From positions 253,501-317,500 of the forward strand of contig JAODUO010000640.1 in the NCBI GenBank assembly GCA_025642075.2: a stretch of DNA of 64,000 nt, read 5' to 3'. Shown in pieces: positions 1 through 61,165 of this stretch. The position numbers and the translations under genes were made by a program. The notes below the pieces were generated by a model. It was not told the DNA's origin, made no database searches, and saw only the letters and a program-made list of their open reading frames with translations. Numbering within the stretch: position 1 is the stretch's first letter; each line of letters starts with the position of its first letter. This DNA comes from Ridgeia piscesae. Taxonomy: Eukaryota; Annelida; Polychaeta; Sabellida; Siboglinidae.

Positions 1-375
1 TCGGTCAGTGATGTTGTCTCATGTCACCAACAGGTCGGTCAGTGATGTTCTCATGTCACCAACAGGTCGGTCAGTGATGTTCTCATGTCACTAATGGGTT
101 GGTCAGTGATGTTCTCATGTCACCAACAGGTCGGTCAGTGATGTTCTCATGTCACTAACAGGTTGGTCAGTGATGTGTCATATCAACAACAGGTCGGTCA
201 GTGATGTTGTCTCATGTCACCAACAGGTCGGTCAGTGATGTTCTCATGTCACCAACAGGTCGGTCAGTGATGTTCTCATGTCACCAACAGGTCGGTCAGT
301 GATATTGTCTCATGTCACCAACAGGTCGGTCAGTGATGTTGTCTCATGTCACCAACAGGTCGGTCAGTGATGTTG
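1..375. repeat. 32-bp minisatellite containing the INTS13 splice acceptor
   Basis: About 11 tandem copies of a roughly 32-bp unit (GTCGGTCAGTGATGTT followed by CTCATGTCACCAACAG) run from the left edge into the INTS13 exon. The real exon begins at 359 with GTCGGTCAGTGATGTTG, coding the RSVML that precedes EQPRK. So each unit repeats the end of the intron (CACCAACAG) plus the first 16 or so coding bases. Some units carry an extra TGT, and the array continues left of the window. Confidence 0.93.
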
Positions 376-1642: not shown

Positions 1643-4600
1643 TATATATATTATATATAATGTACATATATATAATATATATATATATAATATATATGTA
1701 TATATATATATTATGTGTATACATATATAATATGTATATATTATATGTATATAATAATATATATATATTATATGTATATGTATATAATATATATAATGTA
1801 TATACATATATAATATATATATATATATAATGTATATACACTGTACATATATAATATATATATCCACACCTACTACAAACACCAGCCCTGGTAATAATAA
1901 TAAAACAAAGACAAATATGAAAATAAAAGACACATCACATTTATTTGTCAGAAGTGATGTGGACACGTGTTGACTCAGTGATGTTGTAGTGGTCAGTGTT
2001 GACTCAGTGATGTTGTAGTGGTCAGTGTTGACTCAGTGATGTTGTAGTGGTCAGTGTTGACTCAGTGATGTTGTAGTGGTCAGTGTTTTTTTGCAGCAAG
2101 GAGTCAGTTGGAGAGAATTACACGGCACTGGCCACTGGTCATCGGTGACACCATCATTTTCAACCTGCTCCCGGTCAGTCATAGTTTTCTTTGCTAATTG
2201 TGCAGTTGGGCAGTGAATGTGGTCAAGCTACTTGACAGGCCAGTCTTCTGTATGCTGTCACACGGTGTACTGAGTTGTAAGGTACCTGTACATGGTATGA
2301 GCCCACTTAAGACCAAGCTAAGTAGAACTTTGATAACTAGAAGTATTGCCCTACTGGTTTCACTTATCCAGAGTGTACTGTCATTGTTTATTTGAGAATG
2401 AAAACTGTAATGGCCTAAACAAGATCCAAAGACTAACAGAAATTAGAACTCATTAATTTTGTTTCATTCATTCAATTTAAAAGTGTTGTTGTTGCAGCAA
2501 GTACAGCCTCTTTCACCAGTAATCATTGCTGTGTGTTGTTGTTGCAGCAAGTACTGCCTCTTTCACCAGTAATCATTGCTGTGTGTTGTTGTTGCAGCAA
2601 GTACTGCCTCTTTCACCAGTAATCATTGCTGTGTGTTGTTGTTGCAGCAAGTACTGCCTCTTTCACCAGTAATCATTGCTGTGTGTTGGTGTTGCAACAA
2701 GAACTGCTTATTTCACCAGTAATCATTGCTGTGTTGTTGTTGCAATAAGAACTGCCTTTTTCACCAGTAGCCATTGCTGTGTGTTGTTGTTGCAGCAAGT
2801 GATGCCTCTTTCACCAGTAATCATTGCTGTGTGTTGTTGTTGCAGCAAGTGCTGCCTATTTCACCAGTAATCATTGCTATGTGTTGTTGTTGCAACAAAT
2901 ACTGTCTCTTTCACCAGTAATCATTGCTGTGTGTTGTTGTTGCAACAAGAACTGCTTATTTCACCAGTAATCATTGCTGTGTTGTTGTTGCAGCGAGTAC
3001 TGCCTCTTTCACCAGTATTCATTGCTGTGTGTTGTTGTTGCAGCAGCAAATACTGTCTCTTTCACCAGTAATCATTGCTGTGTGTTGTTGTTGCAGCAAG
3101 TGCAGCCACTTCCATCACTAATCATCAAGGAAACGATGTCAGAATCCGAGTCACTAGAATGCAAGAAAGCCATCTATCGACTCGTTTCCATGGAAAGTCA
3201 CAATGAACCACTGCCGGTGCCCCCTAGTGGTACACGCGGTAAAGGACCTAAGCGGTGAGACATTTAAGAAAATTGACATATCTCTGTTGGGGTCATGGTG
3301 GGTATGTAGGAAACTGGGAACACGTCCTACCAGGGTAGTTAGTGGCCTGAGAGGCCATAGCCTCATACTGGGTGAGAGGCCATAGCCTCATACTGGGTGA
3401 GAGGCCATAGCCTCATACTGGGTGAGAGGCCATAGCCTCATACTGGGTGAGAGTCCATAGCCTCATACTGGCCTTATTTTGGCTTTGTAGTGAGCTCATG
3501 GCCTTATATTGAGCTTATGGCCTTTACTGGGCTCTGTCTTATTTTTGGCTCATGGTCTTGTCAGAGCTCATGGTCTTATTTTTGGGTAATGGCCTTATAT
3601 TAACTCATGGCTTTATGTTTGATTAATGGCCGTATGCTCAGCTCAAGGCTAGGGACATGAGATAACACAAGTTTTCATTTTTTTCAGTTGTGACATCAAC
3701 ATTATTATTTTAATGTTTTTAAACAAAAAAATTGGCATAGCATTACATATAGACACATTATGGATTGACAGCAATGTCTTTAGAACAACAACTAGTACCA
3801 TCACTATTGTACATGGAAAATAATTCTATAATAAAACGTAATAAAAAGCACCTGAAAGAATACTGTGATTGGTTCGGCTGTCATGACAATCACTGACACT
3901 TGATGTTGAGGTTCACCATTAATCACACACAATACATCAACTTTATGTTGGCCAGAGAGGAGCAGTATCGCCAGATGTGGAGTGAGCTGGAGAAGTTTGT
4001 GCGTGCGCATGCGGGCTCCTCCAGCATGCACCACAAGGTGCTGGAGTGTGTGCTGGAGTGCAAGAAGCCGTCGGTGGACGACGGCCACGGAGGCTCGCCC
4101 ACTGGGGAGGACAGGAAACCATCACTCCTAGAGCTGGAGCAGGCCGCATGGAAGGAACTGGACAGGTGAACAGTCTCACAGTCTCACTGTGCCACCAGGG
4201 TCCTGTGCACTCTTGCACAACCATAGTGGTATTACTCAGTTTGACTTGTTCTATCAAAAGAAACAAAACATTGATTTAATTAGTGGTACAGTTAGAACCA
4301 CTACATACACATACACAGACATCATTTTATAGGAACATATTATGTTTAGCATTCAGAAGCATGTGAAAGGAGGATTTGACATCATATTGAAGAGGATGTA
4401 ATGTCACAATGAAACAATAATTATTATAGTTTTGATTACAAAAAAATAGAACCTGCAAAGTGTCTAACTGGTCAATATTTGACATCAGTCTTTAGTATTG
4501 GTTGTATGGTGTTGTGAGAGTGTGTTGCTGTTGGTGGCAGGTATGAGAAGGTGCCAGACAGGCGGGACACACTGAAGATAGACACACCAGAGTCTCCTCC

Positions 4601-6175
4601 GCCGACCAAACGCATCAAGGCAGAGAAACCACATGCCATCAGTCGCACCACTGGTAAACACAGTCACACGTACACATGTCAGTCGCACCACTGGTAAACA
4701 CAGTCACACTTACACATGTCAGTCGCACCACTGGTAAACACAGTCACACTTACACATGTCAGTCACACCACTGGTAAACACAGTCACATTTACACATGTC
4801 AGTCGCATCACTGATAAACACAGTCACACTTACACATGTCAGTCGCACCACTGGTAAACACAGTCACACTTACACATGTCAGTCACACCACTGGTAAACA
4901 CAGTCACATTTACACATGTCAGTCGCACCACTGGTAAACACAGTCACACTTACAACACATGTCAGTCACACCACTGGTAAACACAGTCACACTTACACAT
5001 GTCAGATGCACCACTGGTAAACACAGTCACACTTACACATGTCAGTCGCACCACTGGTAAACACAGTCACACTTACAACACATGTCAGTCGCACCACTGG
5101 TAAACACAGTCACACTTACACATGTCAGTCGCACCACTGGTAAACACAGTCACACTTACACATGTCAGTCGCACCACTGGTAAACACAGTCACACTTACG
5201 TATGTCAGTCACACCACTGGTAAACACAGTCACACTTACACATGTCAGTCGCACCACTGGTAAACACAGTCACACTTACGTATGTCAGTCACACCACTGG
5301 TAAATAAAAATGATGGTGGTGGGTCTTCTGAGTCATTCACGAGCTGAAGGTTGTTTTCAGCTTGTCAGTGACAATATGTTGTTGTTGTTGACAGGTCACG
5401 AGTCACTGTTGTCAATGTGGACCAGCAGACTAAAGGCGCAACATTCAAATCATCATGCCGAGTTTGCTGGCCGGGCAGAGAGCAACGGCCACAAGGCAGA
5501 CCTGTATATACATCTCAATGACAACCCTAAGGGGTAAATACCAATACTTTTACATTCTGATAGTTCCTAGTCGATTGCTTAACAGTATTAGAATAAAACA
5601 ATAAAGTATCCAGTTTTGCCATCTATTTATGCTGTGGTACTTAGAGTAATGCACATATATTTATATATTACCAGTGAAATGGTGTAATGTTTTATGCTGA
5701 AGTATAAGCTTAATCAATTCACTGAAGTTCACTGAAGACACAGGTACAAGGCAGTGATTGGTCTAAGCTGTAAGGAATATTTTGTATGTAAAAAACCAGC
5801 ATTTTGGTTACTTGTGACAGTGTGAAGTGATAAACGTGACTAATGTTCATTGTAATTCATGTTACAGTACCGCTAGACTGTAAGGTGCTGGCATGTATAA
5901 TTACGGAGTAATACATTAGATCTAACTGGTGTAATGGCAGTAGGTTGCCACAGTGAATACAGCTAGTTTTCGTTCAAGTCATGTGCTCGAGTTAGATGTC
6001 TCTTATAAAACATGGCAGTAACATGTCTACCCACCTGACACCCTTTAAACCTATGCTACCACCTGTAATATATGTTGTATTACAAAACCAAAGTAACACC
6101 TGTACTTACCTATGCTCTCTTTCTTTCAGAAACAAGAAAAATGGTGGCATGCCAGGGAAGACGAATGGCACATAG
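359..6175 (+). CDS. INTS13: Integrator complex subunit 13 (INTS13/Asunder), C-terminal half, 8 exons
   Basis: Coding exons: 359-537, 1259-1340, 2097-2173, 3097-3254, 3956-4165, 4541-4653, 5395-5533 and 6130-6175 (stop TAG at 6173-6175). All introns are GT/AG and the phases agree across all joins, giving about 334 residues. The rest lies left of the window. Recognised from memory of human INTS13/Asunder (about 706 aa) by blocks such as LLEQPRK-like, KVISHML.SHGGEI, SRSILEDPPSISEG, TDYRI.DFGE, GTRGKGPKR and EQYR.MW.ELE..VRAH, ending in an EFAGR..S motif. INTS13 belongs to the INTS10-13-14 module of the nuclear Integrator complex, which cleaves nascent snRNA and paused transcripts. Asunder is also linked to dynein localisation. 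A basic PPTKRIKAEK stretch (exon 4541-4653) fits a nuclear localisation signal. Three of its splice sites lie at the ends of tandem arrays that repeat the splice site. No frameshift or internal stop was seen. Confidence 0.95.
625..845 (-). mobile_element. Decayed LINE 3'-end fragment in INTS13 intron
   Basis: Read on the minus strand, this stretch gives KRPRGRWRDELDDYWKG and, in another frame, HAEAFAQPRDTMAT. These resemble the conserved C-terminal tail of many non-LTR retrotransposon ORF2 proteins (arginine-rich RW.DE.....W, then a short EAF...WD motif). The frames are broken and no reverse-transcriptase core is visible, so this is a short dead remnant. The clade cannot be set from so little sequence. 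Confidence 0.6.
1600..1862. repeat. AT-rich microsatellite (TA)n
   Basis: Almost pure alternating TA with GTA interruptions, in the INTS13 intron between 1340 and 2097. Open frames on both strands here (runs of Y, I and M) are a product of low complexity and not genes. Confidence 0.95.
1965..2090. repeat. 29-bp minisatellite just upstream of an INTS13 acceptor
   Basis: About four copies of TTGACTCAGTGATGTTGTAG plus TGGTCAGTG end six bases before the TTTGCAG acceptor of the exon at 2097. The unit contains intronic sequence only, so the splice site itself is not repeated here. Confidence 0.85.
2484..3125. repeat. 50-bp minisatellite containing an INTS13 splice acceptor
   Basis: About 12 copies of a 50-bp unit: GTTGTTGTTGCAG, then CAAGTACTGCCTCTTTCACC and AGTAATCATTGCTGTGT. 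The true exon at 3097 starts after the same GTTGTTGTTGCAG and reads CAAGTGCAGCCACTTCCATC ACTAATCATCAAGG. The unit is therefore the acceptor plus about 27 bases of exon start, diverged in detail. Every copy keeps a TTGCA.C-type acceptor or a one-base variant of it (TTGCAACAA in some). Confidence 0.93.
3362..3475. repeat. 25-bp minisatellite GGTGAGAGGCCATAGCCTCA...
   Basis: Four to five copies downstream of the INTS13 donor at 3255. The real donor (CG|GTGAGACATTT) is about 110 bp away, and apart from the shared GGTGAGA the unit does not match the exon edge. A loose series of similar TCATGGCCTTAT motifs continues to about 3640. Confidence 0.75.
4634..5305. repeat. 40-bp minisatellite containing an INTS13 splice donor
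   Basis: About 16 copies of CAGTCGCACCACTG then GTAAACACAGTCACACTTAC ACATGT. The real exon ends at 4653 as ..ATCAGTCGCACCACTG|GTAAACACAG, so each unit carries the last 14 exon bases plus the donor and the start of the intron. Nearly every copy retains GTAAAC; one near 4811 reads GATAAAC. The period is not a multiple of three. Confidence 0.94.
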
Positions 6176-6486
6176 TCGGGAAAGCTAGCCGAGGGTACAA
6201 CATATATCTAGACATATTCACATGACCTGAAGAAATATTGAGAAGTGGGAAGATAAAACAGCAAACTACAGACATGACAAATATTGAAATACAATTTTAT
6301 GTGAATTGTGTCAGCTGAAGCACAGTTTGTATGAATTGTATGACTTATGCGACAAACTGATGAAATCACAATGATACTACATCATTGAAGTACGTGGTAC
6401 AACCAGTTTTATTGCGGAAATGTACCAACTTTAAAAAAAATTCTATGACAAAGGACCTAATACACTATTTTTTTATGAAATCGAGG

Positions 6487-6630
6487 AATAAAGTCAAATG
6501 GTTTGTTTAGTTATTAATGTTCTGTACAAACAGATTTGTTTATTTGATAATAAACACATTGGTACTTTTAACATGTTCTTTGTAAATAAACATTTGATAT
6601 ATTCTGTGCTTATTGTAGACAAATAAACTT
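6487..6630 (+). promoter_or_regulatory. Poly(A) signal cluster, probable INTS13 3' end
   Basis: Four AATAAA hexamers (6487, 6549, 6585 and about 6623) follow the INTS13 stop by 310-450 bp in AT-rich sequence. This fits a short 3' UTR. Which signal is used cannot be told from sequence. Confidence 0.6.
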
Positions 6631-6889
6631 TTTTTAAATTATAAAAAAATCTGGATTACAAATATGTATTCACATGGCCTAAGTCGACAACAAATAGATA
6701 TAATAATGATTCTAGTGTTGTAGGAACAACTGTCAGACCATATTCAGTTCTAGATGGAAAATACTTATTTAGGATGTTGGTGGTTTATTTTAAGATATGC
6801 TATGGGCACTGCCATTATTGAGATTTTCCCCCAAAGCTTGGCCCTACAATCTGTATTTGTAGTGATGTCTCATAAGGTTGAATGTGTTA

Positions 6890-10390: not shown

Positions 10391-10394
10391 GCAT

Positions 10395-10765
10395 GTTTTA
10401 TGTGTGTGCGTGCGTGCGCGGGCGTTTGCATACGTGCGTTGGCGGTTCCACAGATGGTAGCACAGACAGCCTAGCTATACGCTCGGGAAACAAAAATTCT
10501 CCAAATGCACCCCTCGATATTGAGTCTCCCAAATCATGCTCACTGGCGCCGGAATTACTTCATCCACCCGTCCGATCTCGACCCGTCGACGGATCGTGAT
10601 ACACTGGGCAAGGTAGTATTAAAAATGTTTCGCTGCTACGTTCAAAAATTATTGACATATTAATTGTCCAGTCCTTGACGCGGGCCGTTGCGCAAACGGT
10701 CTATGGGACAAGTAATGCTAGCGCAAGCATAACGCGAGTTCCCGCCTCACGAAGTATGCAGCCAA
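10395..10765 (+). promoter_or_regulatory. CpG-rich block, candidate promoter and 5' non-coding exon of TMEM243
   Basis: CG dinucleotides become frequent here (for example CGTGCGTGCGCGGGCG, CCGTCCGATCTCGACCCGTC, TTGACGCGGGCCGTTGCG), in contrast with the flanks. A possible donor, GGGCAAG|GTAGTA, lies at 10612. It could end a non-coding first exon joined to the acceptor at 12197 (TTTCAG|AGCAGTGAAGTC ATGG). This is inference from composition and position only. Confidence 0.35.
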
Positions 10766-10792
10766 TATTAACGCATGCCAAGCAATATATAT

Positions 10793-10860
10793 GTGTGTGT
10801 GTGTATACATATATTTATAATATATATATATATATAGATAGATAGATAGATAGATAGATC
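10793..10860. repeat. Compound microsatellite (GT)n-(TA)n-(GATA)n
   Basis: A GT run, then TA, then about seven GATA units, immediately after the CpG-rich block. Confidence 0.95.
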
Positions 10861-11770: not shown

Positions 11771-11799
11771 TATGGGGGATTGAATGTTGTTGTTTATGT

Positions 11800-11826
11800 C
11801 ATTTATATATATATATATATATATAA
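11800..11826. repeat. (TA)n microsatellite
   Basis: A short pure TA run next to the LINE fragment. Confidence 0.9.
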
Positions 11827-12209: not shown

Positions 12210-18622
<6,413 letters not shown>

Positions 18623-20768: not shown

Positions 20769-20769
20769 A

Positions 20770-42000: not shown

Positions 42001-45000
42001 ATACTCATGCTAGTACACTGATTCATCATTAATACACTTACATATACTTATTAACCATTTATTATATACTTTATACACCCCTCCTGGTACCAACCAAACT
42101 TCACATACTCTTCCCAACCAAGTTTCATTCGCCCCTCCCTGAGGCCTACCATATTCAGGCATGTGAGATAAAAAATAAAATCTCAAACACATTACTTTTA
42201 TGTACTGAAACACCACACCACAAATAAAAACTGAAAGTTTACAGTACTCTGCAAACAGTTGGATGGTACTGTGGATATCATTTTCAAAACACAAACAAAA
42301 CAAAATCATAATGCATTGTAAAACCCACATATGTCCTAAGATCCTCGGATGAATAACCCAAGATTGATCAATGTCACACTGAAGATGTGATGTTATTTAA
42401 AATAAAATGAACCACGTCCACTGGTTCCCTGGTATATACCCCTGCCTCAAGTCAGTACTTTTGGTTCATTGTTCAATCTAATAGATATTTCCTCGGGGGA
42501 TTCCTTCCTCATTTGCTTTCTAAAAGGTTATATTTGACATAGCCTCTCGAGTGTTATGTTTGCAGTGCAATGCTTGTGAAAGTGTTGCCGATATATGGGA
42601 ATCACAGGCGAGCTCACAAACATTGTATGTGACATATTTATTGTTAGATTGCTTCGTGCAGAGCATTAAATTTTGCATGTTATGGCGATCTTTCCCGATC
42701 CTATTTTATAATCATTGTCCACTAAACTACTTGCAGTCACCTTTCAGTTGTAGCTTGGCGATTATGTCAACCATAAAGTAATTACTGTGATGGAAATGAT
42801 TTAATAATAATAAACAATATGGACAGTAGCGGGCGAGTAGCAAGACTTGCAAAGAAAGGGTGCATCTGTTTGGCAAGTGGCCAGACATGTAACGAGAGAG
42901 CACTTCTGATTGGCTCACATGTTTGAGTGGTGACATCGAGCGATCGTGTTCATTACTAGTCCACATGCCATCTAGCGAATTGCGTTACTGTCATGTTGTT
43001 TATGCCAAATATTACTATAATCCTTTCATCAATGTTTTGACACTATCGTGTGTGACGTTCCTGACACCCTTCAAGAACATTCAGTGAAATCCAAGAACAT
43101 TCCCGGGAACTTGAATGAAAAATTCAAGAACATTTCGGCAATGTGTGGGGACCTGGCCCTGGCAATGTCTAGTTACACCCATGTTACTCGCTGACTACTT
43201 GCTGAAAGTCTACTTCAAAATACCTTCCACAGTCAGTCTAACAGCCTCAATTGGTATAATAACTCTACTCAGTTGAACACTGTAGGGCATTTTGGCAACA
43301 TGTTGACGCAGAATCTTAAAATAAGTTTGACTTATATCATTGAAGCGATACAGAACAAAAACAGCCTGACTGGGTTCGCGGGAAACCTACAACAACATTG
43401 GCTGAACACGACGTAATATATATTGGATAAACCAATCTGTAGGTGTTCCACTTTCCCGATTCCGAGCGCATCAATGGGAATGTAAATTTCTGACTCAGAC
43501 CATAGTAACCATAGTAAAATTTGCCTTATTTGGGCATTTACTATATAATGACATGCAGTTTTCCCAGTGGTATGCGTATGCTAATTGTAACCTGTGCCCT
43601 CATTTGCAGTTCCTAGCTAATCAAAATGCAGATTACTTTTAAAAGGATGACATTTGCAAATGCGGTCTACGGCACACCTCAAATCAAGACAAATTTTTTA
43701 TTTGTTATCCATTTCAGACAAGTTTTACATATTAGAAAAACGAAAACTTCGGATTTGGATGAATCACAGAAATGGCCAAATCGGGTTCACGAACCGCAGA
43801 ATTCCACGGAAGTTTTGCATGCCTGCATACTTCACAAACTTCTCCCTAGTATCTTCAACAAGAGAGCTGGAGGGCACTACTGATACTCAACATCATAACC
43901 TTATGTGTCGGCTGATAATCTAAATACACAGCACTGAAGGAGACTGGCTGCTACTAACTCCACCCAGTCACCCACCCACCTGTAATGTTGACAAGGTATG
44001 ATCCATGGCTACCATCCAGGTCTGTCTTCTGTCTTTTGGCAGGATGCTGTGAGGGAATGGTAGCAGTCACAGGGTGCACTGCTACAACAACATGTCACAC
44101 AGTTGAACACTAAATGCACCACTACAACAACATGTCACACAGTTGAACATTAAGTGCACCGCTACAACAACATGTCACACAGTTGAACACTAAGCCACTA
44201 CTACAACAACATGTCACACATTTGAACACTAAGTGCACCGCTACAAAAACATGTCACACAGTTGAACACTAAGTGCACCGCTACAACAACATGTCACACA
44301 GTTGAACACTAAGTGCACCGCTACAACAACATGTCACACAGTTGAACACTAAGTGCACCACTACAACATGTCACAGAGTTGAACACTAAGTGCACCGCTA
44401 CAACAACATGTCACACAGTTGAACACTAAGTGCACCGCTACAACAACATGTCACACAGTTGAACACTAAGTGCACCGCTACAACAACATGTCACACAGTT
44501 GAACACTAAGTGCACCACTACAACATGTCACAGAGTTAAACACTAAGTGCACCGCTACAACAACATGTCACACAGTTGAACACTAAGTGCACCGCTACAA
44601 CAACATGTCACACAGTTGAACACTAAGTGCACCACTACAACATGTCACACAGTTGAACACTAAGTGCACCACTACAACATGTCACACAGTTGAACACTAA
44701 GTGCACCACTACAACATGTCACACAGTTGAACATTAAGTGCACTGCTACTACATGTCACACAGTTGAACACTAAATGTACCATGCAACACGTCACACAGT
44801 CCACTAAGTGCACCTCTACAACATGTCACACAGGTCACTGGGTGCACCTCTACAACATTTCACACAGGTCACTGGGTGCACCTCTACAACATGTCACACA
44901 GGTCACTGGGTGCACCTCTACAACATGTCACACAGGTCACTGGGTGCACCTCTACAACATGTCACACAGGTCACTGGGTGCACCTTTACAACATGTCACA

Positions 45001-45747
45001 CAGGTCACTGAGTGTCCATCTATAACATGTCACATCTTGCATCTAGTGATTTGTAGTCACTGGTTCAAAAAGGAGATGGCTTTGTAAAGGAGGGACCAGT
45101 CCTGAGATACAACAAAGTTGGCAACAAAAGAATCCAAGTGGGAAACTTGGCACCTCTATCATGTCAGTTCTCCAGTGAAACAGTTGACTGTCATAAGTGA
45201 GTGACTTACATGCGAGCGTGCCATCTGCAGACAGGATGATCACTTGATGTCCATTGAGGTTTCCACATGTGGCTGAGTTGACAGTAGATGCTAGTGCTTC
45301 TGTGCTGGCAACTAACACCTGATTCATTTCAGCCTCACTCACTTGTATCTGTTCATCTCCCTTCAACCCACCCTGCTCTCTGTCTATCCCTTCCTCCACA
45401 CAGCTCACATCTTCCTCCATGGCTGTCACGACAACAGTGTTACTCATCCCATCTTCTCCCATCATCGACAAACTTCCATCATCAACGATGTTGTTACTTG
45501 TTGCAAGTGACAACACACTTTGTTTGAATGCCTCTGCAGACACAATACCGTCATTGTCAGGAAGGAGAATGATTGCGGGACTCCCATCATTCACTTGCTG
45601 TATGATGACTTTATTCTTGTCTGTCACCTCTGTCTCTTCTGAGATGTCATGCAGTAATGTCTCGTCATTCTCCTCAACAGTGACAATGTCACCAGACACA
45701 TCTGGAGGGGTCTGTGTGTCAACATCAGCTGTCTCTATCTCTGTCAT
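24084..45747 (-). CDS. DMTF1: Cyclin D-binding Myb-like transcription factor 1, complete coding sequence in 17 coding exons
   Basis: Coding exons in transcript order: 45747-45210, 44081-43980, 41964-41894, 41248-41158, 36353-36277, 35895-35705, 35316-35207, 34653-34585, 33498-33339, 32729-32661, 32543-32461, 30351-30211, 29904-29702, 26168-26003, 25663-25278, 24887-24740 and 24196-24084. Lengths sum to 2718 nt (905 aa plus stop) with every phase consistent; human DMTF1 is about 760 aa. Blocks recalled from the human protein: TQAWFTTRDDK (about residue 250), GHQWKQGQW, FEMSKDERKDFYRTIA (about 305), RSASSVKDRCRLMKDTCN, TRSEKQCRTKWLNYLNWKQ (about 435) and WSSVRSPQWLRGKWW (about 490). These cover the Myb-type DNA-binding repeats (residues about 268-520). 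The acidic N-terminus and the low-complexity C-terminus fit activation regions. It is a nuclear regulator; in mammals it activates ARF and binds D-type cyclins. The ATG follows an acceptor (TTTTCAG|AATG), so an upstream non-coding exon exists. Seven of its junctions carry splice-site arrays. Confidence 0.95.
25383..25634 (-). repeat. Coding 36-bp repeat in DMTF1 exon 15, seven 12-aa units
   Basis: Seven tandem units of the form SHPGGSCEVDQL (variants SQPGVSHEVDHL, SQPEISCEVDQL, SHPGVSCEGDQM, SHAGATCEVDQL, SHVGVTCQVDQL) in frame with the rest of the protein. It lengthens the C-terminal region and partly explains why the protein exceeds the human length. I know of no such repeat in vertebrate DMTF1. 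Confidence 0.9.
26122..29290. repeat. 69/70-bp minisatellite containing a DMTF1 splice acceptor, about 45 copies
   Basis: On the minus strand the unit is TTGACTTGGCCCTGTGTTTA CAG followed by CCGTCCCTCAAGGCCACTCC CAATGTGATGGT and TGCACATGAACAC. The true exon begins at 26168 with the same acceptor and CCATCCCTCAAGGCCACTCC CAATGTGATGGTGCGCATGA ACC. So each unit holds the acceptor plus about 46 exon bases. GTTTACAG is kept in essentially every copy. The eight or so exon-proximal copies are 69 bp, and most others are 70 bp because of one extra base (TGCAACC for TGCACC). Confidence 0.95.
29290..29750. repeat. About 44-bp minisatellite containing a DMTF1 splice donor
   Basis: Nine to ten copies. 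On the minus strand the unit is GTGAGTCTGACCACATCATA GTCCACACTCTATCCCTGAC ACAG. The exon ends at 29702 as CTCTGACCACATCATAGTCC ACACCCTGCCCCTGACACAG|GTGAGTCTGACC, so each unit repeats about 40 bases of exon end and the GTGAGT donor. It abuts the acceptor array of the next exon, so this intron consists almost wholly of two splice-site arrays. Confidence 0.94.
30540..32476. repeat. 26-bp minisatellite derived from a DMTF1 splice donor, about 75 copies
   Basis: On the minus strand the unit is TCTCCTTCCCAG|GTCTGTGTAGTG. The exon ends at 32461 as GCTCTCCTTTCCAG|GTATGTGTAGTGTC, which is the same segment with GTATGT at the true site. Copies keep CAG|GT but mostly read GTCTGT, a weaker donor. Length variants include added GA (ACCTGGGAAGGAGAGAGACA) and GGAAAGAG types that cluster at 31320-32450. 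Plus-strand open frames (RRDTTQTWEGETLHRPG) are repeat translations. Confidence 0.92.
32735..33290. repeat. About 20-bp minisatellite upstream of a DMTF1 acceptor
   Basis: Diverged copies of CACTCCACACAATCTCTCAA (plus strand). On the minus strand the last copy, TGTTGAGAGACCATGTG, runs into the TGTTTGTAG acceptor of the exon ending at 32729. The unit stops short of the splice site. Confidence 0.88.
33622..34618. repeat. 36-bp minisatellite containing a DMTF1 splice donor, about 27 copies
   Basis: On the minus strand the unit is TGTACAAGTTGTCTGGAGTA CGGCCAG|GTAAGATTG. The Myb-region exon 34653-34585 ends in exactly TGTACAAGTTGTCTGGAGTA CGGCCAG|GTAAGA. Nearly every copy keeps the strong GTAAGA donor. 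Copies far from the exon (33620-33950) carry ATGAGTTGTATGG-type substitutions, so divergence grows with distance. A few units are one base short. Confidence 0.95.
34660..35206. other. DMTF1 intron, nothing recognised
   Basis: AT-rich intron between exons 35316-35207 and 34653-34585, with no repeats or coding similarity seen. Confidence 0.5.
36340..36944. repeat. About 57-bp minisatellite containing a DMTF1 splice acceptor, part 1
   Basis: On the minus strand the unit is GTCATAGCTATGACTGAGTG TTTGGTGACAGAGACTGGGG TGTTGACATGTCACCAG. The exon at 36353 starts after the same ..CATGTCACCAG and reads GTCACCAGTGGAAG, so units end in the acceptor and share the first exon bases GTCA. About ten copies precede the hAT-like insertion at 36945, and the array resumes at 38905. 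Confidence 0.88.
36945..38904. mobile_element. hAT-like non-autonomous DNA transposon, copy 1 (1,960 bp)
   Basis: The ends are inverted: CAGAGATGGAGTAAT... and ...ACTCACTCCATCCCTG. It is flanked by a perfect 8-bp duplication, GTCAATAC (36937-36944 and 38905-38912). Termini of the CAG.G.TGG type and 8-bp duplications are hAT hallmarks. Sub-terminal regions are dense in short palindromes of the form TACTCGTACTCGAGTAC. No transposase is visible. It interrupts the minisatellite in the DMTF1 intron. The second copy lies inverted at 52623-54534. Confidence 0.9.
37557..38399. mobile_element. Nested hAT-like element inside copy 1
   Basis: The termini are inverted: CAGACATGGGGTCAAATACA and TGTATTTGACCCCATATCTG. 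They are flanked by GTCCCATC (37549-37556) and GACCCATC (38400-38407), an 8-bp duplication with one mismatch. AAATAC/GTATTT motifs fill the sub-terminal parts. The same insertion is present in copy 2, so it predates the spread of the outer element. Confidence 0.82.
38905..40970. repeat. DMTF1 acceptor minisatellite, part 2, dominated by a 23-bp derivative
   Basis: It continues the array at 36340-36944 beyond the hAT insertion. Most of it is a shorter 23-bp unit, CACCTCAACACCCCAGTCTC TGT, embedded in longer higher-order blocks bounded by CCAATCATAGCCATGACTTG GTGACGTGTCAACAG. Those blocks recur at about 39580, 39880, 40020, 40310 and 40450. The 23-bp units have lost most of the acceptor context. 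Confidence 0.92.
41640..41907. repeat. 19-bp minisatellite containing a DMTF1 splice donor, about 13 copies
   Basis: On the minus strand the unit is GGAGATGGCACAG|GTGAGG. Exon 41964-41894 ends ..CATGGAGATGGCACAG|GTGAGGGG. Every copy keeps CAGGTGAGG. This is the shortest splice-site unit in the window. Confidence 0.93.
41966..43978. other. DMTF1 intron 2, nothing recognised
   Basis: About 2 kb without satellites. It is GC-richer in parts of 42540-43480, with open frames at 43626-43923 (plus strand) that have no domain I recognise. It may hold old mobile-element fragments. No exon can be supported. Confidence 0.4.
44072..45030. repeat. About 40-bp minisatellite containing a DMTF1 splice acceptor, two subfamilies
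   Basis: On the minus strand the unit is TTCAACTGTGTGACATGTTG TTGTAG|CGGTGCACTTAGTG. The exon opens at 44081 after the same ACATGTTGTTGTAG and reads CAGTGCACCCTGTGACTGC. Near copies (44082-44780, about 18) form one subfamily. Distal copies (44800-45030, six) read TTGTAG|AGGTGCACCCAGTGACC, which is closer to the true exon start. The repeat thus contains the acceptor and exon edge. Confidence 0.9.
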
Positions 45748-53200: not shown

Positions 53201-56200
53201 GTATTTGATGTTTAGGAATTAAAAGTATTTGTATTTAAATACTTTTTCAAATATTGTTTCAAATACATTGTCAGTATCAACATTTCTTTTTCACTGTCAC
53301 ATGTAATGCCTGCCAAACTGATTACCTTAATGCACTGCAACTTCACCCAAATTTGCTAACTACTGATGAAGACACTTAACAGCAGGCTTCCCCCATGGTC
53401 CTGCAGTGACCACAACTTGTGATTGCTAAGAGCCAGAGGATGGATTAACACCTAACAGTGACCATAGGTCAATATCCCCTTTTGTTCTTTAGTTAGGCTT
53501 CAATTTGGCACCAGGTTATTCTGGTTTCCTGGCTGACTTTGAAGTTGAGCCTTCCTCACTACATTAGCAATGATTAGCAGTGTCTCTTCTGAGGGCAACA
53601 TAGGCATTATATTATTATGGACCTCCTGGCTTAACATACAAACAATATATTTTTGCCTTTACGTCTTTCAGTCAGTTGTCACTGTGATGCAGTTAGCAAT
53701 AACAATACTCCCTAGCACTGGTCTGCCTGTCATCATATGAGCAAAACACTAATTATGCGTATAAACTAGATGTCTCAATATATGTGTTGCTTTTCTTTTA
53801 TCTACATAGTAATACAAAATGAAAAGTATTTGAAAAATATATGAAAAAGTATTTGAGATACTTTTCAATGTATTCATATTTAAATACATTTATATTAAAA
53901 AAGTATTTGTAATCCCTCAAGAATAGTTGTTGATTTAGACAGGTTTACAGTTTGCACTTAATTAAACATAATACTAGACAGGGATTTAGCAGCTAACCGC
54001 CCAGACCCAGTCAGGATTCTGGATGTTGGAAATATGACCAGTCATTCACACCATACTGACAGAGCAAACAGTACAGGTGGGGCATATGGCCTGGCTTCTA
54101 AAATTACAAAGCAAGATGTTAGGGGATGCTTATCTCCTGCAGTCCTTCCCAGGGACTGTCACAATATAACTTGTACTTTGTACTAAACAGGAGGGTGAGG
54201 TGATGTGGCTTCTCTGGGAAGAGAAGGTATTAATTAGGGAAATCTGACTGAATATTTATTTACCTGAAATGCTCAACAGTAATAGAAAATGATTACCTTG
54301 ATTATTATTACATTTATTAGATTACTTCTAATATTTCCATTTTATCTGTCTAATATATTTGCTTGCAACTGTTCATATGAAAAAAATGTAATCGTGAGAA
54401 GTAATCGTGAGTACGATTACTTTGGCAATGTACTCGAGTACGATTACTTTCCTTCGTACTCGAGTACGAGTACTCAAAAAGTACTCGTACTCGAGTATGA
54501 GTACGAGTACACGAGTACGATTATTCCATCTCTGACACACACGCACTCACACATATGCACACACATACATACACTCACACACATGCACACGCACACACCC
54601 ACACATATACACTCACGCACACACACATACACTCACACACATGCATACACACACGCACACACGCAGTCACGCACACACACATGCATACACAGCTACTGGC
54701 AGCATTTGTTCAAGTATGTGTATTCCCAAACAAAAGCCATAGCGATCATTTGAACAATCCTAGACAGAATGTTCTCACTAGCCAGAAGACATTGTTGGAG
54801 AAACCTCATTGAACCTTACATGATATGTTCTGTCTGTGCTGAATCAATGCACAATAATTCAATGACATAAAATATCACATTATTTTAACTCTGCGTCCCA
54901 GAATGGCTGGCATGGCCTTAGATTCACTGTCTCTTAGACTAGTAAGTTCAAAAGGATGGTAGAACAACAATTTGTTGTTGAGGTCTCCGGCTGTGGTGCA
55001 GTGCATTGTGGAGTAGCACAAATATTGTGACTTTATTGTCTACCCGCCACATACAATCTTGAAAACTTCTTGCATACCCCTGGGGCATATGTAGTACTAC
55101 TGATTAGACAAATTAATAAATGCCAACATTTTTATTTAGCTATACACATGTTTGTACTAACATTTATGTTGTACTTGTGCAATGCACACATGGATGTAAG
55201 TAGCTCAATTTTTAGGTATATATTTTTAAATATAAAAATTGGTTCTAAATGTTCTAAATATGGGTGTATGTTTACCACATGGTTGCTGCTCCGAGGCTAC
55301 GACTCATCTGGGAAACATCGCTCCAGTGGCATCTACACACACATGCCTGCACACATGCCCACACATGCACGCACGCACACACACGGGTCAATCTGTTTGT
55401 CGTTATTTATGCACTGTATATTTGTGTTATAATAGGCCAGAGAAAGTGTCTGACATTGTTGCTGACATGCTGGGGAACAAACTCATCACTAAACAGACTC
55501 CAAAGGGTGGTGTCAAGGTCAACACGGTAAGTATGTGAACAGTATGGAGATTAGAGAAAGATAGCCAGAAGGGGGAAGTACACTGTGATGTTTGAGCCTT
55601 GTTGATGCTGGAGTCGAGGGCAGAACGTTTTTAATATGTGAATTACCTCTCTAGTGCTGGAGATGGGTGCAGGGGGGTGGGAAATACCTTTGTGATTCTG
55701 TAGATGGGTGCAGGGGGTGGGGAAGTAACCTTTGTGCTTCTATAGAGTGGTGCAGGGGGTGGGGAAGTAACCTTTGTGCTTCTGTAGAGTGGTGCAGGGG
55801 GGTGGGGAAGTACCTTTGTGATTCTGTAGATGGGTGCAGGGGATGGGGAAGTACCTTTGTGATTCTGTAGATTGGTGCAGGGGATGTGGAAATACCTTTG
55901 TGATTCTGTAGATTGGTGCAGGGGATGTGGAAGTACCTTTGTGATTCTATAGAAGAATGCAGTGGGGTGGAGAAGTACCTTTGTGGTTCTATAGATGGAT
56001 GCAGGGGGTGGAGAAGTACCTTTGTGATTCTGGAGATGGGTGCAGGGGATGGGGAAGTCACTTTGTGATTCTGTAAATGTGATGCAGGGGTTGGGGAAGT
56101 ACCTTTGTGATTCTGTAAATGTGATGCAGGGGATGGGGAAGTACCTTTGTGATTCTGGAGATGGGTGCAGGGGTTGGGGAAGTACCTTTGTGATTCTGTA

Positions 56201-59200
56201 AATGTGATGCAGGGGTTGGGGAAGTACCTTTGTGATTCTGTAAATGTGATGCAGGGGGTGGGGAAGTACCTTTGTGATTCTGGAGATGGGTGCAGGGGTT
56301 GGGGAAATACCTTTGTGATTCTGTAAATGTGATGCAGGGGTTGGGGAAGTACCTTTGTGATTCTGTAAATGTGATGCAGGGGTGGAGAAGTACCTTTGTG
56401 ATTCTGTAGGTGGGTGCAGGAGTGGAGAAGTACCTTTGTAATTCAGGGGATGGGGAAGTACATTTGTGATTCTGTAGATGGATGTAGGGGGTGGGGAAGT
56501 ACCTTTGTGATTCTGGAGATTGGTGCTGGGGGTGGGGAAATACCTTTGTGATTCTGTAGATGGGTGCAGGGGATGGGGAAGTACCTTTGTGACTCTAGAG
56601 ATGGGTGCAGGCATGTAAGTGATGTTGGACTGATGTAGTTATGTCCGCTGTAGGTGATGGTGGCTGAGGCGCTGGACATTGAGCGGGAGACATACTTTGC
56701 TATCCTGATAGACCGGACATATGGCGGCCCAGTGCTTATAGGCAGCCCTCAGGGGGGCATGGACATAGAGGAGGTGGCAGAGAGCAGTCCTGACGCTATA
56801 TTTAAAGTATGTCCTCATTATACAGTTTACATGTCATATATTCCTTATCATTGTTAAAGTATAGTAAATCTATGAATCATTTTATTTTTCTTGCCGAATC
56901 CACAACTTTATGAATATTTGTTTTACCCCATAAAAACTTATAGTTTTGATATTTTATGATTAACACATTTTACATCAAAACTTAAAATGAATGGATGGAT
57001 GAATGCAGAATATCTTAGTAATATAAAAGATACCAATTTATTCATTACATCAAACATTGCATTGCATAATTTTAGTATCCGTTTAGTTAAAGTGACAGTT
57101 GAGGTGATATTGTTCATAATTTCTTATTTCAGCAACCAATTGACATAATGACAGGTTTGAGAGAGGAACAAGTGACTGACTTGGTGAAGAACCTTGGCTT
57201 CACCGGTGACAAGGCTTCACTGGTGACACTTTCACATCAATGTTTCTCATCATATCTCGCACTGTGCTTGTAGAATGGCACAAAATCAAAAGTATTTTTT
57301 CTGGAATCCTTTGGAAAATATAATGAAAATAGTGACAATCTGTTGTAGAAAACATGTCACTTTGGGATAAATTAAGAAATATTAGTGTGTTTATGGAATA
57401 ACATTCAGTGAGATCCACCCATGTCCACTATATTCTGTGAAGTTGTGAACTTATTAAACTTAAGATATTCTGTACTTTCATGTGTAAAATTTAATGATCT
57501 TTCAGTCAAAACTTACCAATTGTAGAATGATTGAGTGAATCTATTGGAAGCCTTAGCATTCCCCATAAGTATGCAGTGAGTGATATATGTTTCCAGTAGT
57601 TCAAAAATAAAAGGTTAATACAGAGAGTTTGGTGTGATTTGTAGGCTGCGACACAGATAAAAAAGTTGTACGAGCTGTTCCTGAAGGTAGACGCCACACA
57701 AATAGAAATCAACCCCTTCGCTGAGACGCCCGATGGCCAGGGTAAGTCTTGTCTAAATAGTATATTTGTTGAGACGCCTGATGGCCAGGGTAAGTCTTGT
57801 CTAAATAGTATATTTGTTGAGACGTCCGATGGCCAGGGTAAGTCTTGTCTAAATAGTATATTTGTTGAGACGCCCGATGGCCAGGGTAAGTCTTGTCTAA
57901 ATAGTATATTTGTTGAGACGCCCGATGGCCAGGGTAAGTCTTGTCTAAATAGTATATTTGTTGAGACGTCCGATGGCCAGGGTAAGTCTTGTCTAAATAG
58001 TATATTTGTTGAGACGTCTGATGGCCAGGGTAAGTCTTGTCTAAATAGTATATTTGTTGAGACGCCTGATGGCCAGGGTAAGTCTTGTCTAAATAGTATA
58101 TTTGTTGAGACGTCTGATGGCCAGGGTAAGTCTTGTCTAAATAGTATATTTGTTGAGACGCCTGATGGCCAGGGTAAGTCTTGTCTAAATAGTATATTTG
58201 TTGAAAGGTCTGATGGCCAGGGTAAGTCTTGTCTAAATAGTTTATTGGTTGAGACGCCTGATGGCCAGGGTAAGTCTTGTCTAAATAGTATATTTGTTGA
58301 AAGGTCTGATGGCCAGGGTAAGTCTTGTCTAAATAGTATATTTGTTGAGACGTCTGATGGCCAGGGTAAGTCTTGTCTAAATAGTATATTTGTTGAGACG
58401 TCTGATGGCCAGGGTAAGTCTTGTCTAAATAGTATATTTGTTGAGACGTCTGATGGCCAGTATGTCTTGTCTGGCTCACCAATCTTATTACCGTCATTTT
58501 ACTGTGTAACTGAAGAACAATTTCCATTTTTAATGTGATGTTTTAAATGTACAAGAAAATCTTTTGAATCTTATTGAGTATTAGAAATAAGTGTAGTAAC
58601 TAGTAAGTTAATTCATTATCAACATTTCACTTTGCTTTCTCTGCCAAAGAAATGATCTGTAAATCTATAGTTTTATTTCCCTGTTACGTTATGTTTTTGT
58701 GTAATAAATTTAAATAATGATCACTGTGTTTTTACTTTAATTTTTCAGTGGTGTGCTTTGATGCAAAAATCAACTTTGATGACAATGCTGAGTTCCGACA
58801 CAAGGACATCTTTGCCCTAGATGACGAGTCAGAGAGTGATCCCCGCGAGGTGGAGGCCGCTCGCCTCAACCTCAACTACATTGGCATGGATGGCAACATT
58901 GGCTGTCTAGGTACGACCTCATGTCTACAGGACAACTGGCCTGTGATTGCTTAAAAAAACATGAAAAGGAAAGGCATGAATATATTTGGACTACATCGAG
59001 ACACTTCCCACTGGATGAAGTCAGTATTTTATGTTGTGGAGAATGGTGCTGTTCTACATATAGGTATATGACCCTGGCTGAACTCTAGGTTGCATGTTGC
59101 AGTGAATGGAGCGGGGCTGGCCATGGCCACTATGGACCTGGTCCAGTTGCAGGGCGGGCGGCCAGCCAACTTCCTCGATGTGGGGGGAGGTGTGACTGAG

Positions 59201-61165
59201 ACACAAGTCTGCTCAGCATTCAAGATCCTCACCTCTGACAGTCAGGTGGGTGCATGTTGAACGTCACATGGATGGGTGCATGTTGACAGTCAGGTGGGTG
59301 GGTGCATGTTGACAGTCACATGGATTGGTGCATGTTGACAGTCAGGTGGGTGGGTACATGTTGACAGTCACATGGATGGGTGCATGTTGACAGTCAGGTG
59401 GGTGGGTGCATGTTGACAGTCACATGGATTGACAGTCAGGTGGGTGGGTACATGTTGACAGTCACATGGATGGGTGCATGTTGACAGTCAGGTGGGTGGG
59501 TACATGTTAACAGTCACATGGATGGGTGCATGTTGACAGTCAGGTGGGTGAGTGCATGTTGACAGTCACATGGATTGGTGCATGTTGACAGTCAGGTGGG
59601 TGGGTACATGTTGACAGTCGCATGGATGGGTGCATGTTGACAGTCAAATGGATGGGTGCATGTTGACAGTCACATGGATTGGTGCATGTTGACAGTCACA
59701 TGGATTGGTGCATGTTGACAGTCACATGGATGGGTGCATGTTGACAGTCAGGTGGGTGGGTGCATGTTGACAGTCACATGGATGGGTGCATGTTGACAGT
59801 CACATGGATGGGTGCATGTTGACAGTCACATGGATGGGTGCATGTTGACAGTCACATGGATGGGTGCATGTTGACTGTCACATGGATTGGTGCATGTTGA
59901 CAGTCACTTGGATTGGTGCATGTTGACAGTCACGTGGATGGGTGCATGTTGACAGTCACGTGGATGGGTGCATGTTGACAGTCACATGGATGTGTGCATG
60001 TTGACAGTCAGGTGGATAGGTGCATGTTGACAGTCGCATGGATGGGTGCATGTTGACAGTCACATGGATGGGTGCATGTTGACAGTCGCATGGATGGGTG
60101 CATGTTGACAGTCGCATGGATGGGTGCATGTTGACAGTCAGGTGGTTGGGTGTGTGTTGACAGTCAGGTGGGTGTGTGTGTTGACAGTGGGTGGGTGTAT
60201 GTTGACAGGCAGTTGGGTATATTTGGAGGTCTCTGTGTATCCAGGTGAAGGTGATCTTGGTGAACGTATTTGGAGGTATCGTCAACTGTGCGACGATTGC
60301 ATCAGGCATCATTGAGGCATGTCGGATCACTAGCCTTGACCTGCCTGTTGTCGTCAGACTTGAAGGTACGTATGTTTCCTGTCTGCTGCAACAACATGCT
60401 CAATTCTTTCCATTTAAAATTGTTTGGTTTGTTTGTTTTGACAAAAACTTACTCATATTTACGAATGTTGTTTTTCGTCTTGTTCAAAAGAGAACAATGT
60501 AAGTGACTGAATGTTTACACTCGTGTTGTTGCCCAAGAGAGAACAATGTAAGTGACTGGATGTTTACACTCGTGTTGTTGCTCAAGAGAGAACAATGTAA
60601 GTGACTGAATGTTTACACTCGTGTTGTTGCCCAAGAGAGAACAATGTAAGTGACTGGATGTTTACACTCGTGTTGTTGCTCAAGAGAGAACAATGTCGGT
60701 GACTGGATGTTTACACTCGTGTTGTTGCTCAAGAGAGAACAATGTAAGTGACTGGATGTTTACACTCGTGTTGTTGCTCAAGAGAGAACAATGTCGGTGA
60801 CTGGATGTTTACACTTGTGTTGTTGCTCAAGAGAGAACAATGTAAGTAACTGGATGTTTACACTCGTGTTGTTGCTCAAGAGAGAACAATGTCAGTGACT
60901 GGATGTTTACACTCGTGTTGTTGCTCAAGAGAGAACAATGTAAGTGACTGGTGACTGGATGTTTACACTCATGTTGTTGCCCAAGAGAGAACAATGTAAG
61001 TGACTAGCAGGTTACACTCATGTTGTTGCAGGGTCGAATGTGGACAAAGCTAGACAACTCCTGGCTGACAGTGGACTCCCCATTGTCACAGCTGGCAGTT
61101 TTGAGGACGCAGCGATCAAGGCAGTCGAGTGTCTCAAAGCTGAAAAGACACGCCAAGTAGCATGA
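47238..61165 (+). CDS. SUCLG2: Succinyl-CoA ligase (GDP-forming) subunit beta, mitochondrial; 11 coding exons, complete
   Basis: Exons: 47238-47294, 51796-51940, 52225-52324, 55436-55526, 56654-56806, 57133-57222, 57645-57741, 58749-58910, 59103-59245, 60245-60365 and 61032-61165. The sum is 1293 nt = 430 aa plus TGA, all phases consistent; human SUCLG2 is about 432 aa. It catalyses the substrate-level phosphorylation step of the TCA cycle (succinyl-CoA + GDP + Pi to succinate + GTP) with the SUCLG1 alpha subunit in the mitochondrial matrix. Residues 1-19 (basic, no acid residue) look like an import signal. [12 protein letters not shown] (30-41) and [13 protein letters not shown] (76-88) are the ATP-grasp nucleotide region; [35 protein letters not shown] and [15 protein letters not shown] follow. 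The C-terminal ligase domain shows [31 protein letters not shown] and VVRLEG. Sequence favours SUCLG2 over the ATP-specific paralogue SUCLA2. Two donors are embedded in splice-site arrays. Confidence 0.96.
47971..48300. repeat. Large AT-rich palindrome, arms about 140 bp
   Basis: The left arm 47971-48110 is matched by the reverse complement of 48157-48300 with few mismatches; for example AAGCAAAAATGCATAGATAA AAT pairs with ATTTTATCTATGCGTTTTTG CTT. The loop is about 46 bp. It lies in SUCLG2 intron 1. It could be a foldback MITE or a recent inverted duplication. A second, smaller hairpin (AACATAAGTATATA... ...TATATACTTATGTT) lies at 48304-48352. Confidence 0.88.
48485..49176. other. SUCLG2 intron 1 segment, nothing recognised
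   Basis: AT-rich intron between the palindromes and the terminal-inverted-repeat element; no feature could be supported. Confidence 0.4.
49181..51589. mobile_element. DNA transposon with 30-bp terminal inverted repeats (2.41 kb), unclassified
   Basis: The left end (49181-49210) is GTGACCCAGCACAGCAACAT CAGGAATAAG. The right end (51560-51589) is its inverted copy with one mismatch. Both are flanked by ATTT (49177-49180 and 51590-51593), a candidate 4-bp duplication. Inside, minus-strand frames 50953-50717 and 49897-49463 and a short frame starting near 50697 are GC-richer than the flanks and have no domain I know. No intact transposase is visible. Superfamily is undecided: ends and a 4-bp duplication do not fit hAT (8 bp) or piggyBac (TTAA). 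Confidence 0.82.
50504..50953 (-). pseudogene. Possible degraded or cargo coding segment inside the 49181-51589 element
   Basis: Minus-strand frame starting [16 protein letters not shown] and running 78 codons to a stop, followed closely by a second frame starting [20 protein letters not shown] donor-like GAG|GTAAGTTA lies at about 50504. Codon-like composition suggests descent from a real exon, but I cannot name the family. It may be a broken transposase or a captured gene piece. Confidence 0.3.
52552..52622. repeat. CA-rich microsatellite (target of the hAT insertion)
   Basis: CACACGCACACATGCACACG-type repeats just left of copy 2. The same CA-rich track resumes at 54535-54690 on the other side, so the element split one microsatellite. 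Confidence 0.9.
52623..54534. mobile_element. hAT-like non-autonomous DNA transposon, copy 2 (1,912 bp, inverted relative to copy 1)
   Basis: It starts CAGAGATGGAGTGAGTACAA and ends ...TTATTCCATCTCTG, flanked by an 8-bp ACACACAC duplication (52615-52622 and 54535-54542) inside a CA repeat. The sequence is the reverse complement of copy 1 along its length, including the nested element (its terminus at 53142, preceded by GATGGGTC). It lies in SUCLG2 intron 3. One end of the nested element is missing: about 60 bp lost near 53925. Confidence 0.9.
54535..54692. repeat. CA-rich microsatellite
   Basis: Imperfect (CA)n with GCA, TA and CT interruptions. It is the right half of the track split by the hAT copy. 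Confidence 0.92.
54700..55420. other. SUCLG2 intron 3 right part, nothing recognised
   Basis: Unique AT-rich intron with a short CA/CG repeat (about 55335-55385) shortly before the acceptor at 55435. No exon was found. Confidence 0.4.
55655..56615. repeat. About 41-bp minisatellite in SUCLG2 intron 4, about 22 copies
   Basis: The unit is GTACCTTTGTGATTCTGTAG ATGGGTGCAGGGGATGGGGAA. Each copy has CTGTAG followed by (A/G)TGGGTG. The true acceptor downstream is CGCTGTAG|GTGATGGTGGCTG at 56654, so a distant origin from this acceptor is possible but not clear. A minus-strand 323-codon frame across it is a repeat translation. Confidence 0.92.
57724..58470. repeat. 48-bp minisatellite containing a SUCLG2 splice donor, about 15 copies, frame open
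   Basis: The unit is GAGACGCCTGATGGCCAGG|GTAAGTCTTGTC followed by TAAATAGTATATTTGTT. The real exon ends at 57741 in ..GAGACGCCCGATGGCCAGG|GTAAGT. All interior copies keep the near-ideal GTAAGT donor; the last one (about 58459) reads CCAGTATGTC. The unit is 16 codons with no stop in the exon's own frame, giving an uninterrupted 290-codon frame. Confidence 0.95.
59236..60215. repeat. 27-29-bp minisatellite derived from a SUCLG2 splice donor, about 35 copies
   Basis: The exon ends at 59245 in TCTGACAGTCAG|GTGGGTGCATGTTGA. The array alternates GACAGTCAGGTGGGTGGGTG CATGTT (donor kept) with GACAGTCACATGGATGGGTG CATGTT (donor lost, CACATGG). Donor-bearing copies are scattered in the left half, and the right half is mostly the donor-less type. 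Confidence 0.92.
60486..61020. repeat. 49-bp minisatellite upstream of the last SUCLG2 acceptor, about 11 copies
   Basis: The unit is GTGACTGGATGTTTACACTC GTGTTGTTGCTCAAGAGAGA ACAATGTAA. The acceptor at 61031 is preceded by TTACACTCATGTTGTTGCAG, so the unit holds the same pre-acceptor tract but with TTGCTC or TTGCCC where the real site has TTGCAG. The AG itself is not repeated. Confidence 0.92.

Follow-up and report, generated by a model that had tools for sequence, protein, structure and literature searches.

Tandem arrays built from exon-intron border sequence in three genes of the tubeworm Ridgeia piscesae

The window, a stretch of 64,000 nucleotides of DNA from the deep-sea tubeworm Ridgeia piscesae, carries exons of INTS13, DMTF1 and SUCLG2, with tandem arrays in the introns of each (Table 1). 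Gene models and borders were derived from homology, and the reading frames are open after splicing. The SUCLG2 model is identical to a public R. piscesae protein (P0121) over all 402 residues queried, the INTS13 model matches INTS13 in the PDB, which gives homology support to its borders, and the junction residues of DMTF1 align with those of ten chosen homologs, loosely so at 44081 and 41894, in a variable part of the protein.

Table 1. Tandem arrays of the window and their relation to exon borders. Exonic bp are those lying within the array.
Gene	Array	Position	Strand	Relation to border
INTS13	32 bp	1..374	+	straddles acceptor 359, 16 exonic bp; end part of a longer array (34-bp unit) that starts upstream of the window
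INTS13	29 bp	1959..2087	+	ends 9 bp before acceptor 2097; exonic bases absent
INTS13	50 bp	2483..3125	+	straddles acceptor 3097, 29 exonic bp (79% identity to unit)
INTS13	25/19/37 bp	3348..3635	+	intronic, 93 bp past donor 3254; tests took in 3348-3471 only
INTS13	40 bp	4639..5304	+	straddles donor 4653, 15 exonic bp
DMTF1	36 bp (12 aa), in frame	25380..25632	-	entirely within coding exon, separate from border arrays
DMTF1	70 bp, ~45 copies	26123..29287	-	straddles acceptor 26168, 46 exonic bp
DMTF1	44 bp	29305..29740	-	straddles donor 29702, 39 exonic bp
DMTF1	26 bp, ~74 copies	30547..32473	-	straddles donor 32461, 13 exonic bp
DMTF1	20 bp	32746..33274	-	ends 16 bp before acceptor 32729; exonic bases absent
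DMTF1	36 bp	33638..34613	-	straddles donor 34585, 29 exonic bp
DMTF1	57/23 bp	36350..40959	-	acceptor 36353, 4 exonic bp only; split by mobile-element-like insert
DMTF1	19 bp	41648..41906	-	straddles donor 41894, 13 exonic bp
DMTF1	40 bp	44074..45034	-	straddles acceptor 44081, 8 exonic bp, 7 matching unit
SUCLG2	42 bp	55657..56611	+	intronic, ends 42 bp before acceptor 56654; exonic bases absent
SUCLG2	48 bp	57722..58472	+	straddles donor 57741, 20 exonic bp
SUCLG2	26/52 bp	59236..60188	+	straddles donor 59245, 10 exonic bp with edge set by eye (TRF edge 59245)
SUCLG2	49 bp	60480..61029	+	ends 2 bp before exon start 61032; exonic bases absent

A preliminary description had listed twelve splice borders with a neighbouring minisatellite. 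TRF found an array at all twelve, with periods of 19 to 70 bp, which is within the minisatellite range. The accompanying claim, that each unit is made of exon-edge plus intron-edge bases, held at eleven of them (8 to 46 exonic bp) and was marginal at acceptor 36353 (4 bp). At donor 59245 the TRF edge leaves 1 exonic bp, and it was shifted by eye to 59236 because TGACAGTCAG recurs within the array. The exonic share of the unit averaged 0.54 over 11 arrays and was indistinguishable from a uniform distribution (KS P = 0.28), which argues against a fixed cut at the junction. Copies have diverged among themselves, with a mean identity to the consensus of 0.89 to 0.98. An all-against-all BLAST of the 24 arrays of the window returned matches only between the halves of one split array, ruling out a dispersed family of units within the window and agreeing with the view that a process, not a repeat family, is at work.

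Besides the border arrays, there are four that lack exonic bases and end 2, 9, 16 and 42 bp short of an acceptor, and a fifth that begins 93 bp past a donor. The statement that arrays never extend into the exon was partly definitional, since the end of an exon is set by whichever copy gets spliced; beyond that it fails for the array inside the DMTF1 coding exon and at SUCLG2 donor 57222, where a duplicated 17-bp segment is present in two copies, the first of them exonic. Sense-strand G skew, a hint of R-loops, was positive in 14 of 18 array pieces, but the difference from array-less introns reached only P = 0.051.

We consider it likely that DNA spanning an exon edge was duplicated and amplified neutrally, with selection keeping the exon-most copy only. 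A segment of 19 to 70 bp that happened to span an exon-intron border, with the junction at any point in it, would first be tandemly duplicated, and later growth would proceed by ordinary minisatellite turnover through slippage, unequal exchange or gene conversion. If splicing stayed with the copy adjoining the exon, purifying selection would act on that copy alone; the remaining copies would turn into intron, and the intron would lengthen as many repeats joining exon-edge to intron-edge sequence accumulated in it. These mutational steps are what we infer. Where the copied residues are conserved, homolog comparison indicates that copying ran from the exon edge into the intron: the 39 exonic bp of the unit at 29702 encode SDHIIVHTLPLTQ, conserved across ten chosen DMTF1 homologs, and upstream of the window many copies of a 56-bp INTS13 unit encode DTVTLKWCTPRTN, which closely resembles a human sequence entered by hand. 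Protein conservation and one public protein suggest that the exon-most copy is the spliced one; in a comparison of proteins rather than RNA reads, the public SUCLG2 protein is identical to the model spliced at the exon-most donors.

We considered the possibility that borders are not preferred at all, duplications arising uniformly and selection removing those that fall in exons. Since array-bearing introns are short apart from the array, seeds would then often touch a border; indeed, the DNA outside the array had a median of 175 bp in 15 array-bearing introns versus 384.5 bp in 16 array-less ones (P = 0.004). How far the count exceeds chance varies with the null model. Ten of the 16 arrays in complete introns straddled a border, a count taken from the same window as the border hypothesis itself, and a pooled null that places seeds anywhere in these introns expects 1.7 (P = 5e-7). 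A null restricted to the array-free DNA of each array's own intron already expects 6.1, as uniform seeding would have it, yet ten remains above this (P = 0.02; P = 0.0066 with a floor of 100 bp on unique intron DNA). The own-intron null was not rejected for arrays lying within 100 bp of a border (16 of 16 versus 14.1 expected, P = 0.072). On the other hand, uniform seeding should favour long introns, and the three longest (2015, 3111 and 4501 bp) held no array in the count, element satellites and a CA run in the 3111-bp intron having been set aside. We regard uniform seeding as unlikely, though it deserves more weight than any other alternative, and a preference of arrays for borders, through more births or better survival there, as probable. 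Low-copy tandem duplications that could be nascent seeds were few, mostly near chance score, and did not distinguish birth from survival. A candidate cause would be highly divergent alleles: exons may then form islands of identity where homologs pair, so that unequal exchange would be concentrated at their edges.

The survey beyond the window covered 20 stretches of 10 kb (13 near KH-domain hits and 7 on the window's scaffold, the last three of which include 17.5 kb of N) and 8 hand-picked stretches of 4 kb. The eleven KH stretches outside HDLBP held 18 arrays of at least 100 bp, nine of which entered the count; those left out were one in stretch L005, where no exon was recognisable, and eight in L018, L019 and L020. 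Upstream on the window's scaffold there were 23 arrays, and the 8 within INTS13 introns were judged. Of the resulting 17 arrays, 5 straddle a border (in INTS13 and HNRNPK), a lower share than within the window, and 11 straddle one or sit within 50 bp of it. The 5' half of INTS13 alone was not significant, with 2 of 7 straddling (P = 0.13 under the pooled null, 0.30 under the own-intron null). One border array upstream of the window has ~116 copies. HNRNPK, on a different scaffold, shows the same border-array design. No array of at least 100 bp was found in HDLBP, also on a different scaffold, with 17 exon blocks in 20 kb; border arrays are therefore not universal, and the phenomenon is not pervasive in the sense first proposed. 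The proposal that amplification favours splice sites was partly supported, under both nulls within the window and more weakly outside it.

A further reading, that the arrays record the birth of introns by tandem duplication, or a junction process coupled to splicing or templated by RNA, is very unlikely. For amphioxus globins, duplications of this sort have been put forward as a source of new introns (PMC3087553), and DMTF1 intron 26169-29701 consists of array except for 17 bp. Yet in this intron, the only one tested and the one with arrays at both ends, each end lies in an array of its own and the units of the two are unrelated; the ends do not derive from one duplicated segment, as the AGGT criterion for intron gain would have it. 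An RNA-templated step would moreover fix the position of the junction, which is observed at any point of the unit.

Copy numbers come from one assembly, and arrays or array lengths could in principle be assembly artefacts. The published R. piscesae assembly is described as built from Illumina libraries with a contig N50 of 10.42 kb (PMC9921365); upstream of the window, the spacer between two INTS13 arrays is rich in small indels, and an INTS13 exon of ~30 residues expected between these two was not found. However, the assembly analysed here comprises 628 Mb in 4875 contigs, versus 574.96 Mb published, the copies have diverged, the units differ between arrays, an insert splits one array, and the design recurs in HNRNPK on another scaffold, all of which makes an artefact highly improbable. 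Least credible is the suggestion, also made in the preliminary description, that selection retains the copies as spare splice sites that aid splicing or give alternative isoforms: across the 11 arrays scored in register, 234 of 260 copies of the junction have an intact splice dinucleotide, and the 59245 array holds 12 exact CAG|GT, yet among copies these dinucleotides are conserved no better than the unit's other dinucleotides (mean percentile rank 0.375, one-sided permutation P = 0.94; 12 arrays, that at 59245 out of register), and just 3 of the 12 units have a length divisible by 3, so that most alternative copy use would shift the frame.

The border arrays are of a known kind, the mirages of amphioxus, and this vestimentiferan tubeworm, an annelid and not an amphioxus, appears to be a new host. 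The amphioxus report that the preliminary description mentioned exists and is cited in PMC3087553. As described there and in PMC3902484, mirages are tandem repeats across exon-intron boundaries, 5' and 3', in Adh3, the globins BflGb6 and BflGb9, PGBD5 and troponin C; the Adh3 unit measures 10 to 72 bp, many mirage units retain AG or GT, regular splicing is apparently undisturbed, and length instability of the Adh3 mirage between individuals is reported. The Ridgeia arrays are alike in having a unit across the true boundary (11 of 12), minisatellite size and the retained AG or GT. They differ in copy number, with each border array of the window holding ~10 to 74 copies and one upstream ~116, versus 3 and 6 units described for BflGb6, and in that 11 of them lie within ~60 kb of an annelid genome; the globin mirage units, given as 150 to 160 bp, exceed those of any border array here. 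Internal tandem repeats of human segmental duplications also place ~30-bp units at exon-intron boundaries and alter gene structure, but, according to PMC2812944, they vary between paralogs, average 160 bp in total, can stay exonic and can activate new introns. Earthworm metallothionein genes likewise offer large intronic minisatellite clusters in an annelid, but these have a mean monomer of ~180 bp and lie in the first intron, and the excerpted text of PMC12783039 does not mention a splice junction inside the unit.

That borders are preferred sites of minisatellite birth or survival outside chordates, and that border-anchored amplification is a recurrent, convergent means of intron lengthening, we put forward tentatively, as possible rather than probable. 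Should border arrays prove recurrent among annelids, as they are in amphioxus, they would be more than a cephalochordate oddity. They would then call for caution in annotating genes and assembling genomes of this sort, the ~200 decoy splice sites of this one window would form a natural set for the study of copy choice by the spliceosome, and intron lengthening would have a concrete route that can be dated.

The gene models (Table) were built on open frames, GT/AG borders and homology. The window (G000:C640:253501-317500) lies within a 412,324-base scaffold of R. piscesae, a siboglinid annelid of the vestimentiferan tubeworms. The SUCLG2 model agreed with the R. piscesae protein P0121 (NP493_640g03039) at 100% identity and 100% query coverage and matched the GDP-forming succinyl-CoA ligase beta chain in PDB, as INTS13 matched PDB INTS13 (E 2.8e-94). 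The DMTF1 model found its matches among DMTF1 proteins of many animals; in a 45-row, midpoint-rooted tree it grouped among protostomes, apart from hemichordates and vertebrates (100/99), with nemerteans adjoining it at weak support. Residues on both sides of DMTF1 junctions 36353, 34585, 32461 and 29702/26168 aligned with ten chosen homologs, except that one of these, P0059, has no left side at 34585. Alignment was loose at 44081 and 41894, in a variable part of the protein, and the last DMTF1 exon has an end that was placed by hand and is unsure.

Table. Gene models and other features of the window
Feature	Position	Strand	Remark
INTS13	window	+	partial model
DMTF1	window	-	model
SUCLG2	window	+	model
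Open frame, 243 aa	12836-13564	-	sole Pfam match ALKBH8_N
Mobile-element-like copies, inverted	36945-38906; 52621-54534		main pieces 89 and 93% identical
Exact two-fold 8-bp repeat	36346-36361		across acceptor 36353
Two-copy 17-bp duplication	57196-57228		across SUCLG2 donor 57222; first copy exonic

The 243-aa frame looks like C-terminal sequence of a non-LTR retrotransposon. The mobile-element-like copies carry GTACTCGAGTAC satellites near their ends, and one of them is located within the DMTF1 array 36350-40959. Seven more arrays lie outside the three gene models (5538-24769 and 61158-64000), at roughly 0.5 per kb of DNA free of arrays.

The preliminary description had listed twelve borders at which the repeat unit contains a splice junction. 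At 11 of them the unit does span the junction and includes between 8 and 46 exonic bases, whereas DMTF1 acceptor 36353 is marginal, its array including 4 exonic bases only; the array edge at SUCLG2 59245 was placed by eye. The exonic share of the unit averaged 0.54 in the 11 arrays with at least 8 exonic bases, indistinguishable from uniform. Identity between exon edge and unit consensus ranged from 72% (a value depressed by an indel) to 100% in 11 arrays in register, 59245 being out of register and excluded. DMTF1 intron 26169-29701 holds one array at each border, leaving 17 of 3533 bp array-free.

The excess over chance was assessed on 16 arrays in 31 complete window introns, straddling meaning at least 5 exonic bp. 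The first array, whose intron is cut by the window, was excluded, as were TA and CA runs, satellites of the mobile element, the array within coding sequence and the 3480-3635 pieces; array 36350-40959, which is split, was scored as one, non-straddling. Ten of the 16 straddled a border, as against 1.7 expected for seeds of equal unit length placed anywhere in the tested introns (pooled null, P 5e-7). With the seed in the array-free DNA of the array's own intron, the expectation is 6.1 (P 0.02), or 5.1 with a 100-bp floor on the array-free part (P 0.0066). Fourteen arrays straddled or lay within 20 bp of a border, the 4-bp case at 36353 included (pooled, 3.0 expected, P 4e-9; own-intron, 9.7 expected, P 0.006), 15 lay within 50 bp (own-intron P 0.033) and all 16 within 100 bp (own-intron P 0.072). 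These P values are optimistic, because the hypothesis came from the same window. Non-array DNA per intron had a median of 175 bp in the 15 array-bearing introns and 384.5 bp in array-less ones (P 0.004).

Upstream, the 5' half of INTS13 has seven arrays in seven complete introns; two of these arrays straddle donors, one with 10 and one with 26 exonic bp (P 0.13 under the pooled and 0.30 under the own-intron null). Added to those of the window, they make 23 arrays in 38 introns, of which 12 arrays straddle, against 2.3 (pooled, P 3e-7) or 7.2 (own-intron, P 0.012) expected. An eighth INTS13 array (56 bp, about 116 copies, 6.3 kb) extends across the next donor and takes in 49 exonic bp, counted from the TRF edge at 18840 to the exon end at 18888. 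The human protein predicts an exon of about 30 residues downstream of this array, but none was found between two arrays. The spacer between these (C640:248600-248957, about 5100-5457 of the 10-kb stretch L002) is full of indels; the assembly may have collapsed there, or the missing exon may have diverged.

KH-domain genes on other scaffolds were named by tblastn with hand-entered proteins, and their flanks were judged by eye, without full gene models. Both HNRNPK arrays of at least 100 bp straddle acceptors by this criterion. Arrays stop short of an acceptor by 23, 21 and 18 bp in a FUBP-like gene, an IGF2BP-like gene and one that we take to be ankyrin-KH-like; a further array on the latter's stretch has its nearest acceptor about 130 bp away. 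Of the arrays in the PCBP-like gene, one lies 45 bp past a donor and the other two are interior. Altogether, of 17 arrays outside the window, 5 straddle a border and a total of 11 either do so or come no farther than 50 bp from one. The proposal that border arrays are pervasive is not supported as it stands: HDLBP (17 exon blocks, 20 kb) has no array of at least 100 bp. Arrays of that size cover 41.8% of the window, 63% of the upstream 40 kb, 5.0% of 12.5 readable kb downstream, 16.5% of eight picked 4-kb stretches, 9.1% of 11 KH stretches and none of HDLBP. Arrays are common in this genome, and the window is part of a region rich in them.

Minisatellites at exon-intron boundaries change gene structure in human segmental duplications (PMC2812944), and a minisatellite is tied to alternative splicing in C. 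elegans (PMC4039745). Earthworm metallothionein introns contain minisatellites too, but the accessible text mentions no junction within the unit (PMC12783039), unlike the units described here. The amphioxus counterparts differ in their host; the window is annelid, not amphioxus, DNA. No title among the matches listed concerned border arrays in annelids, in a search mostly outside subscription literature, and the main texts of three siboglinid genome papers contain no mention of 'minisatellite' or 'tandem repeat'. That border arrays are new for annelids is only likely.

The suggestion that spare splice sites are useful found no backing: no extra conservation of GT/AG was found in the copies, and 9 of the 12 units have a length that would change the frame. 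At the two borders examined, the exon edge was the source of the copies, because the copied residues are conserved in other animals. A DMTF1 coding exon contains an in-frame 36-bp (12 aa) minisatellite (25380-25632), which fits selection, rather than the mutational process, keeping arrays out of exons. The data agree with neutral amplification with one copy pinned: the arrays would amplify neutrally while that copy stays.
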